8,128 bases of DNA from Clostridia bacterium (GTDB lineage Bacteria; Bacillota_A; Clostridia; Oscillospirales; CAG-272). The stretch lies in the NCBI GenBank assembly GCA_017453335.1, contig JAFTKI010000041.1:1-8128 (forward strand), in the 5' to 3' direction. Under the pieces are notes generated by a model that was not told the DNA's origin, did not search any database, and worked only from the letters and a program-made list of their open reading frames with translations. Shown piece by piece: positions 880-8,128 of this stretch. Each line of letters opens with the position of its first letter. The first letter of the stretch is position 1. The position numbers were made by a program, and so were the translations under genes.

Positions 880-903
880 AAACTGAATAGGTTCATGTCA
901 TGA

Positions 904-933
904 AAAAAGCACTTGCAAATGCAAGTGCTTTTT
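904..933. terminator. Bidirectional intrinsic terminator between rsmI and the minus-strand membrane-protein gene
   Basis: Perfect inverted repeat: GCACTTGC (909-916) pairs with GCAAGTGC (921-928) around an AAAT loop. The stem is extended by five A residues (904-908) facing five T residues (929-933). Read on either strand it is a GC-containing hairpin followed by a U tract, so it can end rsmI from the left and the convergent operon from the right. Confidence 0.9.
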
Positions 934-986
934 GTTGCCTTAAGCGTGTAATAAAGTCAAAAATTGAGATAAAAGCGAACAAATGG

Positions 987-1448
987 TCAACGATTCTTAA
1001 TAATACGATCTTTCATCGTTTCAAAAATTTCCTTTTCTGTATATTTACCATAAGCATAAAGAGTAACCGTAATTCTTGTTCCATCTTTTAATTTCATTGT
1101 GTAAAAATATGTATCTTTGGCAATCAATCCATCGCCTTTTCTTAACTGAGCATCAATAGAATCGATATCACAAAATTTTACAACTGTTTTTTGAAAAATT
1201 ATTTTCCCGTTTTTATCAGCTCCTCGCGGAAATATGATTTTTTCAATATCTATTATCAATGCTCTGTTCTTTTCGGCAAGAAAGCAACTAAAAAATACGA
1301 TACCGAGTATTCCGCCTGACACCACCATAGCAACCGAGATAATCGGAAGTTCAGCAAAAATCAGTATCACACCTATAAGCAATACAGCACTGCAGATTAA
1401 AGAAACTATCGCTAACCATCTTGTAGCGCGAGAGGTGTATTTTCTCAT
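987..1448 (-). CDS. Small membrane protein with two N-terminal helices and a PH-like cytosolic domain (hypothetical)
   Basis: The 153-residue product is not a named family to me. Residues 10-32 and 35-58 are two hydrophobic segments joined by a short turn (AELP), which suggests a membrane hairpin. The rest (about 65-153) is soluble and looks beta-rich, ending in a charged helix. Its pattern (IDIEKIIFPRG, KTVVKFCDIDSID, DTYFYTMKLKDGTRITVTLYAYG) resembles bacterial PH-like (bPH) membrane proteins, in which such a domain follows two helices. The resemblance is by pattern only. The ATG at 1448 has AAGGAG (1462-1457) eight bases upstream, and this ribosome binding site lies inside the end of the preceding four-helix-bundle reading frame. 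The two genes overlap by ATGA (1448-1445), so translation is probably coupled. Transcription ends at the 904-933 hairpin. Function unknown. Confidence 0.75.
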   Translation of the reverse strand: MRKYTSRATRWLAIVSLICSAVLLIGVILIFAELPIISVAMVVSGGILGIVFFSCFLAEKNRALIIDIEKIIFPRGADKNGKIIFQKTVVKFCDIDSIDAQLRKGDGLIAKDTYFYTMKLKDGTRITVTLYAYGKYTEKEIFETMKDRIIKNR

Positions 1449-1681: not shown

Positions 1682-1710
1682 ATGATAGCATAAAAACGTT
1701 AGCGTTTCAA
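1682..1710 (-). promoter_or_regulatory. Promoter of the four-helix-bundle/membrane-protein operon
   Basis: On the minus strand TTGAAA (1710-1705) is followed after exactly 17 bases by TATCAT (1687-1682), a good sigma-A type match. The predicted start near 1675 leaves a leader of under 20 bases that carries the ribosome binding site. The spacer holds an inverted repeat, AAACG (1694-1698) with CGTTT (1703-1707), that overlaps the -35 box. The promoter abuts the last unit of the hairpin array, so the array lies upstream of the transcription start. Confidence 0.65.
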
Positions 1711-1884
1711 GTGAAATATTCGGCAATGCCGAATGTGAAATAATCCACTTCGTGAATTGTGAAATATTGCTCCTTCGTCGCAATGTGAAATAAAATCCGC
1801 CTCTCTTATCCCCGCGAAGCGGGATTTCATCGCAAAGCGATTTCATCCACCGAAGGTGGATTTCTTCCGCCAACGGCAGATTTC
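1711..1884. repeat. Two-part inverted array of short hairpins with GTGAAAT / ATTTC spacers
   Basis: The left half has GTGAAAT at 1711, 1735, 1759 and 1785. The first three are each followed by a different small stem-loop: 1718-1734 (7 bp, loop AAT), 1742-1758 (7 bp with one mismatch, loop TTC) and 1766-1784 (5 bp outer stem, imperfect inside, loop TTC). The right half has ATTTC at 1824, 1840, 1860 and 1880, each preceded by a stem-loop: 1811-1823 (5 bp, GAA), 1829-1841 (5 bp, AAA), 1845-1861 (7 bp, GAA) and 1866-1880 (6 bp with one mismatch, AAC). GAAAT and ATTTC are reverse complements and TTC/GAA loops swap likewise, so the halves are inverted copies of one unit design around a centre at 1792-1807. 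Unit lengths are 24, 24, 26 and 16, 20, 20. Stem sequences differ from unit to unit. Function unknown. Confidence 0.85.
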
Positions 1885-1888
1885 GTTG

Positions 1889-1931
1889 AAAAAAGCACAC
1901 ATTGTCTTAGTAGACAAATGTGTGCTTTTTT
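1889..1931 (-). terminator. Intrinsic terminator of the tRNA-Thr/tRNA-Tyr operon
   Basis: GCACACATT (1895-1903) pairs with AATGTGTGC (1917-1925), with GTCT/AGAC continuing the stem after a one-base bulge and a four-base loop (1908-1911). Six A residues (1889-1894) face six T residues (1926-1931), so the hairpin can terminate on both strands. On the minus strand it starts two bases after the CCA end of tRNA-Tyr. It separates the tRNA operon from the hairpin array. Confidence 0.88.
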
Positions 1932-1932
1932 C

Positions 1933-2017
1933 TGGTGGGAGATGGTGGATTCGGACCACCGAAGCGAAACGCAACAGATTTACAGTCTGCCCCCTTTGGC
2001 CACTCGGGAAATCTCCC
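1933..2017 (-). tRNA. tRNA-Tyr (anticodon GTA)
   Basis: An 85-base class II tRNA with encoded CCA (complement of TGG at 1933-1935). The acceptor stem GGGAGAT pairs with ATCTCCC. The anticodon loop reads CTGTAAA, giving anticodon GTA (complement of 1981-1983), and the anticodon stem is GCAGA/TCTGT with one G-U pair. A long variable arm of the tyrosine type follows, then a T arm with stem GGTGG/CCACC and loop TCCGAAT. It is the second gene of a two-tRNA operon and is followed immediately by the terminator. Confidence 0.95.
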
Positions 2018-8069: not shown

Positions 8070-8128
8070 CCTTCCCCAGCGGGGAAGGTGTCACGAGCCT
8101 GCGAGTGACGGATGAGGAGGGACGGCTA
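8070..8128 (+). repeat. GC-rich double-hairpin intergenic element, cut by the window edge
   Basis: A perfect 8-bp stem CCTTCCCC (8070-8077) / GGGGAAGG (8081-8088) with loop AGC is followed at once by a second stem GTCAC (8090-8094) / GTGAC (8105-8109), then GGATGAGGAGGG. From memory, this order (CCTTCCCC hairpin, GTCAC hairpin, GGATGAGG tail) resembles a dispersed intergenic repeat in gut Clostridia, sometimes near DUF559-type endonuclease genes; I cannot verify that here. There is no U tract, so it is a poor intrinsic terminator. Its right end lies outside the window. Confidence 0.6.

Follow-up and report, generated by a model that had tools for sequence, protein, structure and literature searches.

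Facing Gut-1 hairpin arrays as a candidate left-end module of small gene cassettes behind tRNA genes

Introduction

The window analysed here, an 8,128-nucleotide stretch of a Clostridia bacterium genome (contig JAFTKI010000041.1), carries an inverted pair of hairpin arrays which, on balance, we take for the left-end module of small gene cassettes; these form a family and often lie directly behind the CCA end of a tRNA or behind a previous cassette. The cassette would consist, in order, of its own terminator, array A, a closing strand, the inverted array B, an outward promoter, an S23 gene and/or cargo, and a repeated right end finishing in GGCA, ACCA or CACA. The window would hold one 997-bp copy (936–1932) behind tRNA-Tyr in which S23 is partly deleted (Table 1). 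The array, its linkage to S23, the left junction, the variable cargo and the sharing between distant genomes are visible in the sequences compared; the exact right junction is one that we infer. The unit would move as such, S23 would act as an adaptor that binds the array folded as RNA or as single-stranded DNA, and the cutting and joining enzyme would be supplied in trans. A more specific version is tentative, plausible but short of probable: an enzyme-less cassette class may enter between the tRNA CCA and the terminator in Clostridia-type gut bacteria, with the folded inverted array as its left end, the spacer word as a family address read by the co-encoded S23 pentamer, and Gut-1 as half of an end. 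The orphan Gut-1 family would gain a testable genomic role, and S23 proteins a candidate nucleic-acid partner other than ribosomal RNA. Should the units be mobile, tRNA ends in gut Clostridia would host a cassette system by which small genes, most of them of unknown function, pass from one species to another, with a cassette end recognized by structure and not by fixed sequence.

Table 1. Features of the putative cassette and its surroundings in the window.
Feature	Position	Strand	Basis
tRNA-Tyr (GTA)	1933..2017	-	ARAGORN, cmscan, sequence
Left junction of the putative cassette, CCA end of tRNA-Tyr	1935-1933	-	Sequence
Terminator-like palindrome, directly behind CCA	1888..1932	-	Inverted repeat, 16-nt arms, 100%
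Array A, four hairpins, GAAATC/GATGAAATC spacers	1810..1884	-	Sequence and Gut-1 match
P1 5' strand, first spacer and 5' arm of hairpin A1	1875..1884	-	
P1 distal strand, like 3' arm of hairpin A1 (alternative pairing)	1792..1801	-	
Array B, three hairpins, spacers ATTTCAC on - / GTGAAAT on +	1711..1791	-	
Promoter-like site TTGAAA-17-TATCAT, abuts array B end	1682..1710	-	Sequence
S23 / four-helix-bundle gene, 70 aa	1445..1657	-	PF05635, TIGR02436
Cargo ORF, 153 aa, start overlaps S23 stop (ATGA)	987..1448	-	
Right-end sequence ...TTTGTTCGCTTTTATCTC...CTTAAGGCA	936..986	-	Resembles relatives' right ends by eye
Terminator-like hairpin beyond right end	900..935	.	Sequence

Results and discussion

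Identity and distribution of the arrays

Direct reading of the window bears out the spacer and hairpin positions given in the initial annotation. The GTGAAAT spacers of the left half start at 1711, 1735, 1759 and 1785 and the ATTTC spacers of the right half at 1824, 1840, 1860 and 1880; the left half has three hairpins, the right half four. Its caveat that spacer and stem share an AT in the right half is also correct. A repeat search put three of the left half's four spacers into one direct-repeat family. The + strand fold of 1690–1900 gives z = -2.90 against chance, and 3 of 200 dinucleotide shuffles equal it. The - strand order is tRNA-Thr, tRNA-Tyr, palindrome, array A, array B, promoter-like site, S23 and ORF. 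Beyond the cargo ORF lie 51 nt, a terminator-like hairpin, which is probably the original tRNA-Tyr/rsmI terminator, and then the converging rsmI. The palindrome behind tRNA-Tyr is perfect, with A- and T-tracts, and is taken as the left end of the cassette; nearly identical letters stand behind other tRNAs in other genomes.

The array had been held to fit no standard repeat class. This does not stand, since both halves match Gut-1 (RF01706): the match on the + strand (1709–1796) scores 50.0 bits, exactly the gathering score of 50, and that on the - strand (1819–1888) scores 49.3 bits, slightly under it (cmscan). The array thus fits a known class because its halves are Gut-1. Each half is one Gut-1 unit and the halves lie on opposite strands, so that either half repeats the design of the other in inverted form, as the initial annotation had suggested. 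The Gut-1 model shares with the window the same spacers and three hairpins in the same order. It differs in covering 77 nt of one half on one strand only, without the inverted partner, P1 helix, S23 gene, tRNA junction and cassette that accompany the arrays here. According to an excerpt of the 2010 description (PMC2864571), Gut-1 was found in environmental sequences only, and in the human gut only, and is not cis-regulatory; by the same excerpt it has stood in print since 2010 without an assigned function. Beyond that paper, no Gut-1 literature was found among open-licence PMC papers.

Relatives were collected by a scan with the window RsmI, from which the best 80 of 294 loci were taken, mostly from Clostridia/Oscillospiraceae metagenome genomes; the best RsmI identity to the window is 85%. 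All 16 genomes taken from these loci contain Gut-1 matches at E 0.001, 15 of them over the cut-off, with 1 to 34 matches per genome, often as facing pairs. In a class survey, 49 of 291 genomes show a match and 33 are over the cut-off; these 291 are a draw from the class of genome G007, G007 included, under stricter filters than those of the 16-genome scan. Of 14 control genomes, E. coli alone gives a match, and this one stays under the cut-off. The genome-wide search proposed in the initial annotation therefore shows that the array is not a one-off. The relatives' genomes are fragmented assemblies, and several Gut-1 matches in G007 and other assemblies lie at contig ends, as expected if near-identical copies break assembly; the copy numbers given here may thus be too low.

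Conserved design of stems, spacer words and the P1 helix

We compared the array elements slot by slot for stems, P1 and spacers, because the MAFFT alignment slips one hairpin between elements. In 24 GAAAT-type elements, which include the window and several nearly identical members, an uninterrupted stem of 4 bp or longer is retained in 93 of the 141 segments between spacers; 200 shuffles give a mean of 25.6 and a maximum of 38. Several to many different stems occur in each hairpin slot, so the proposal that structure rather than sequence is selected holds for these elements. Homologous loci with neither compensatory stem changes nor conserved spacer positions, and an array that occurs only once, had been named as grounds for giving up this proposal; neither was found in the relatives.

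The spacer words vary with the family (among them GTGAAAT, GATGAAATC, ATGAAGC, GTGAAG, TGATAT, ATGATG, GTGATG, GCGATAT and GCTAAAT), and the second half bears the reverse complement. A search in which complementarity was not demanded yielded 63 of 84 adjacent direct-repeat pairs that are reverse-complementary (partner-shuffled mean 17.0, maximum 26 of 500); some of the 84 are related copies, and at least one place is represented twice (by L046 and L145). When pairs sharing a 30-mer are collapsed, 26 of 40 groups remain reverse-complementary (partner-shuffled mean 5.5, maximum 11). Under a 5-of-6 criterion, 45 of 85 pairs are complementary (partner-shuffled mean 9.2, maximum 15); repeated 5-mers were used for the larger count because many of the 5-of-6 misses were register shifts. 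The 21 misses among the 84 pairs are in part chance repeats and in part degenerate arrays. By eye the window is a hybrid, with an A half of the GATGAAATC type, as in L141 and L150, and a B half of the GTGAAAT type, as in L046, L118 and L129. A further family, GCTAAAT/ATTTAGC, is found upstream of the S23 gene in additional genomes from the class (L253, L254, L256, L257 and L259). Reversed sequence proved unfit as an array control (121 real and 123 reversed) because reversal preserves inverted repeats, and dinucleotide shuffles and tiles were used instead; GAAAT arrays alone gave 9 against 0 in reversed sequence, a count not used as evidence.

A long-range closing helix, P1, recurs as well, in which the first spacer and the 5' arm of hairpin A1 pair with a more distant strand; it reaches at least 10 bp at an offset of 78–85 nt in 22 of the 24 GAAAT-type elements; the two misses each show, by eye, one mismatch at the expected place. 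Over all families, P1 of at least 10 bp occurs at an offset of 74–92 in one orientation in 36 of 63 array pairs, compared with 1 of 63 when the distal region is shuffled. The P1 strands vary by family, for example AAATCC/GGATTT, TCGCC/GGCGA, GTTTGCC/GGCAAAC and CCGTTCC/GGAACGG. Cross-pairing of P1 strands between elements is a weak control, because GAAAT/ATTTC is common to the elements, and 184 of 488 different-strand pairs reach 9 bp. In the 84-pair analysis the best helix of a repeat pair is often other than P1. Two partners are thus possible for the 5' arm of hairpin A1, namely its own 3' arm and the similar distal strand of P1.

The S23 gene and its link to the arrays

The window S23 gene matches PF05635 with 44.5 bits (cut-off 33.8) and TIGR02436 with 52.4 bits (cut-off 24, model positions 7–64 of 109), and the matches cover only about the first 60 profile positions. 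Full-length relatives have about 115 aa, and the 70-aa window protein is without their inner part: at its IALKE-NTK, L134 has more residues between the same two flanks. The closest solved relative that we found is 2rld (E 1.7e-25). In the excerpts of the two papers concerned, a Xanthomonas S23 member is a homopentamer of four-helix bundles (PMC4990558), and Avd of diversity-generating retroelements is homologous to PF05635 (PMC10053308).

Thirteen of the 16 genomes hold 31 S23 matches, of which 30 were taken as loci, one match having no locus. An array pair stands within 450 nt upstream of S23 in 23 of the 28 loci with enough upstream DNA, by a test that itself demands a reverse-complementary second half. 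The same test is passed by 2 of 1,120 dinucleotide shuffles of these upstream regions, by 1 of 25 downstream windows and by 8 of 1,918 tiles of 450 nt from the relatives' DNA, some of which hold real arrays. The 30 loci come from genomes chosen via rsmI, Gut-1 or S23 and are not a random sample; the 23 include a doubtful array (ACTTTT, L173), and L169, L186 and L191, where degenerate arrays are visible by eye, count as misses. In the class-wide set, drawn from the best 30 S23 matches, 9 of 29 evaluable loci have an array, and L264 and L266, beyond these nine, are also array-like by eye; that S23 of the wider class often stands without an array counts against the cassette. The array-linked S23 carries GAN, and four members without an array carry PTN: arrays accompany 27 of 34 distinct evaluable GAN-type loci (28 of 35 rows, reduced because L268 is the same locus as L187) and none of the four PTN-type loci. 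This set comprises 62 loci including L001 and the window, with 21 unclassed and two having too little DNA. As judged from these protein sequences, the array link goes with an S23 subfamily.

Contig L001, from a viral collection, shows two tandem array pairs before a full-length S23 (2564–2949). The gene after S23 is one that we take to be guaA, and the contig is therefore probably chromosomal.

The main rival to the cassette is that the array is a transcribed riboregulator, in which the 5' arm switches between hairpin A1 and P1 and which regulates, with or without the S23 protein, transcription past the tRNA terminator into S23 and cargo. This is an unlikely explanation, in our estimate, and it owes its rank to loci that show no promoter between array and S23: L167, L168, L170, L176 and L178 have a ribosome-binding site after the array and no promoter by eye, so the array RNA would be the S23 leader there. 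The recurrence of P1 and the likeness of its distal strand to the 3' arm of hairpin 1 argue in the same direction, as do the UUCG-type loops that occur in arrays and the classification of Gut-1 as sRNA in Rfam. However, a promoter-like site follows the array in the window and in many relatives, where the layout is similar by eye, and the S23 mRNA would then exclude the array. The design is moreover identical on both strands, because the A and B halves are inverted, and the probability of P1 in the window's own ensemble is only 0.0–0.01.

Left junction at the tRNA CCA end

We compared 28 distinct tRNA loci, picked for an array start less than 75 nt behind the tRNA. They represent 15 anticodons, and 27 of the 28 tRNAs end in CCA. 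In all 28 an inverted repeat (arm of at least 6) starts within 16 nt of the tRNA, a count that has no control set, and in most an A-run lies, by eye, within the first few nucleotides after CCA. These loci are from genomes chosen via rsmI, Gut-1 or S23 and do not form a random sample. In eight pairs of different tRNAs, six of which lie among four loci, the first 50 nt after CCA, mainly terminator, are more than 85% identical, and the tRNA bodies average 42%. Of 83 distinct tRNAs, 33 are followed by an array within 300 nt, and an array lies upstream of 0 of 79; the 83-tRNA sample is biased towards arrays, and in the rsmI-chosen loci the count is 4 of 20 tRNAs, at two loci. In L106, L116, L167 and L168 the array follows a protein gene and not a tRNA, which counts against the cassette as described.

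An inner TTTGTCT motif is seen by eye in the pre-array terminator hairpins of 13 of the 28 loci, including L041, L046 and L187, despite differing stems. At tRNA-Trp, nearly one and the same terminator precedes three array families in three genomes (L095, L108 and L215). The terminator may therefore be native there, with modules joining after it, and arrays may also be exchanged after the terminator. In L172, a tRNA-3'-end-like fragment (GGTTCTGAGCCC...TTTCCACCA), by eye not an intact tRNA, stands directly before terminator and array; L172 and L120 taken together are a hint that a tRNA end may be part of some units.

Whole units, right ends and cargo

The unit as a whole is best seen in L177 (tRNA-Val, G002) and L187 (tRNA-Arg, G007), which are 93.7% identical over 1,325 nt. 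Their shared block starts at CCA and ends at ...GACACCTTTTATCAC.TTTA (TATCAC.TTTA), a few nucleotides before GGCA or ACCA. Similar right ends occur at nine sites in relatives, in addition to L227 and the window. By eye, a clear terminator hairpin follows in L101, L180, L187, L204 and one of two sites in L142; another array follows directly in L126; neither follows at the other L142 site or in L177 and L189; and in L227 the terminator and array of the next unit follow. A second type of right end, with GCATCTAAATCRG repeats, stands after cargo genes in L131 and L150. This variation of the right ends is a further point against the cassette.

Units are in tandem in L150 and L227. Each of the three units of L150 (850–3240) carries a promoter and cargo and closes with a long right end, about 180 nt in length; by eye, the inner portion of this end (ATCGCCAAGGGGTTAG...) is similar to a tRNA D-arm. 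The array between the first and second cargo has ATGAAGC/GCTTCAT spacers. A duplicated tRNA end was considered for the right end and rejected, L120 being the only case among the junctions compared: L120 (same locus as L220) has a copy of the tRNA 3' end with 7 mismatches, the others 12–17, and the best 30-nt far-end copy in the window has 13.

Cargo is common to L177, L187 and L189 and varies among many units. The window cargo ORF is weakly DUF5381-like (24.7 bits, cut-off 26). Two of ten cargo proteins have Pfam domains over the cut-off (PQQ_2 and Metallophos) and eight have none. Defence genes were considered as cargo, and PADLOC matched none of the ten proteins at E 0.01. Units with cargo and without S23 occur (L106, L120 and L150), and beside other arrays no S23 or cargo was seen (L002 and L116), the latter again weighing against the cassette; L118 resembles L130 minus S23 and most of the cargo. 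In L222 (1–10061), about 15 mostly small co-oriented ORFs, one reversed, precede an array unit.

Turnover and sharing between genomes

At 17 tRNA-Tyr loci compared by eye (16 relatives and the window; L203 and L213 have incomplete sequence), array families differ between genomes, and L206 and L215 have no array. Among the 30 closest relatives (L002–L031, some incomplete), only L002 shows the window's arrangement of tRNA-Tyr beside rsmI; the roughly 320 nt between the two contain a different array and, by eye, no S23 or cargo. Outside this set, tRNA-Thr and tRNA-Tyr adjoin rsmI in L046 with the opposite orientation, and a unit that includes S23 comes after them. Between G014 and G002 the identity is 72.9% for rsmI, 97.1% for the array and 98.5% for S23, and between G002 and G007 it is 78.1% for rsmI and 98.9% for the array. 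The G014/G002 block takes in both tRNAs (94% over 740 nt), so this sharing may be ordinary recombination. No near-isogenic empty/filled pair was found among the genomes compared.

An alternative is that the array is a passive intergenic repeat of the REP/BIME type that homologous recombination has spread, S23 and cargo being bystanders. The occurrence of the hairpins as inverted pairs, many to a genome, the copies without S23 (L116 and L118) and the mixed A and B families of the window's array would all be natural for such a repeat. We nevertheless consider it quite unlikely, as a bystander relationship does not suit the fixed order and place relative to S23 (23 of 28), the left edge at the CCA of unrelated tRNAs or the 1,325-nt shared unit with genes.

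Folding of the window array

The initial annotation proposed that the nested spacers of A and B could pair as rungs, giving a ladder of four-way junctions. This fold is possible, yet it is not the preferred one. With RNA parameters the ladder has an energy of -42.3 kcal/mol, the local hairpins -39.8 and the P1 form -44.9, whereas the unconstrained minimum is -59.7 kcal/mol. The RNA rung probabilities, from the outside in, are 0.45, 0.04, 0.16 and 0.005 on the S23 strand and 0.55, 0.002, 0.11 and 0.25 on the opposite strand. DNA parameters give 0.60, 0.15, 0.47 and 0.34 for one strand and 0.53, 0.15, 0.62 and 0.73 for the other; the ladder (-22.5) is then slightly better than the local hairpins (-21.4) and P1 (-19.2), with a minimum of -32.5. 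In these models a four-rung ladder is thus allowed, more so as DNA, but it is not singled out energetically.

As the functional form of the array, the ladder appears distinctly improbable. The complementarity of the spacer words between halves (63 of 84 pairs, 26 of 40 collapsed groups) and the outer rung probability of 0.45–0.60 would agree with it. On the other hand, the lowest-energy fold is another, the first rung and its hairpin compete with P1 for one strand, and common descent with spacer homogenization would equally yield matched words. Single deviant spacers in L130, L144 and L155 have no change in the nested partner by eye. Such uncompensated deviants suggest that the co-change of the spacers may be due to a protein that recognizes a single word in either orientation, and not to rung pairing.

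Search for a mobilizing enzyme and comparison with known systems

For the cassette reading, domain scans and locus checks do not bear out movement by a linked reverse transcriptase, Y1 transposase or integrase. Reverse transcriptase (PF00078) was found in 5 of 16 genomes and in none of the four with most array matches (G007, G012, G013 and G002), and arrays lie near none of the five reverse transcriptase loci. Y1 transposase (PF01797) was likewise found in 5 of 16 genomes and is absent from the two with most array matches (G007 and G012); none of eight Y1 loci has an array. Tyrosine recombinases occur in all 16 genomes, few in each (two in G007), and two of the ORFs are presumably Xer-like. 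A repeat that passes the array test, a doubtful GC-rich word, lies near 1 of 30 tyrosine-recombinase loci, and no linked tyrosine integrase was found among the eight window ORFs scanned. No candidate moving enzyme emerged from these three scans of the 16 genomes.

A retro-insertion, in which an antisense RNA ending at the U-tract of the left palindrome is copied from the tRNA 3' CCA or a nick to give CCA and an A-tract, would account for the A-run soon after CCA in most of the 28 loci (by eye) and would suit the essential role that an excerpt of PMC10053308 gives the S23-family Avd in reverse-transcribing diversity-generating retroelements, but it is very improbable, as 11 of the 16 genomes, including the four richest in array matches, yielded no reverse transcriptase domain and 0 of 5 reverse transcriptase loci have arrays nearby.

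We compared the unit with known systems, mostly by feature tests in the relatives' genomes. REP/BIME elements with RAYT, like the units here, are paired inverted hairpins that recur at many intergenic sites and have a gene linked to them. The units here differ in that the linked protein is S23 and not a Y1 transposase, and in having cargo and a tRNA junction. Integron gene cassettes are likewise small units with variable cargo, sometimes in tandem; in contrast, the present units have their own promoter and terminator, and the attC order (RYYYAAC...GTTRRRY) was not seen by eye. Unlike tRNA-targeted integrative elements, the window has neither a linked tyrosine integrase nor a far-end repeat of the tRNA 3' end. 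Diversity-generating retroelements have in Avd a protein homologous to PF05635 (PMC10053308, in the excerpt), whereas the units here have no linked reverse transcriptase.

The intervening sequences of 23S rRNA carry an S23 of the same family (PF05635/TIGR02436) and, as an excerpt of PMC4990558 presents them, are likewise small elements with an S23 gene in or beside a structured-RNA gene. In contrast to them, the cassettes here lie behind tRNA genes and bear hairpin arrays and cargo; an Rfam scan found no rRNA family match in the window, where the element lies behind tRNA-Tyr and not inside a 23S rRNA gene. The whole unit fits none of the families tested, namely 23S intervening sequences, REP/RAYT, tRNA-targeted elements and diversity-generating retroelements. 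In the titles and abstract openings retrieved by searches of open-licence PMC papers, neither S23 with hairpin arrays nor such cassettes were evident. If the unit moves as such, the system, defined here from sequence comparison, would be new as a class.

Lastly, the end of the window (8070–8128) contains a GC-rich repeat-like stretch (CTTCCCCAGCGGGGAAGG...GAGTGACGGATGAGGAGGG), which by eye belongs to another intergenic repeat family.
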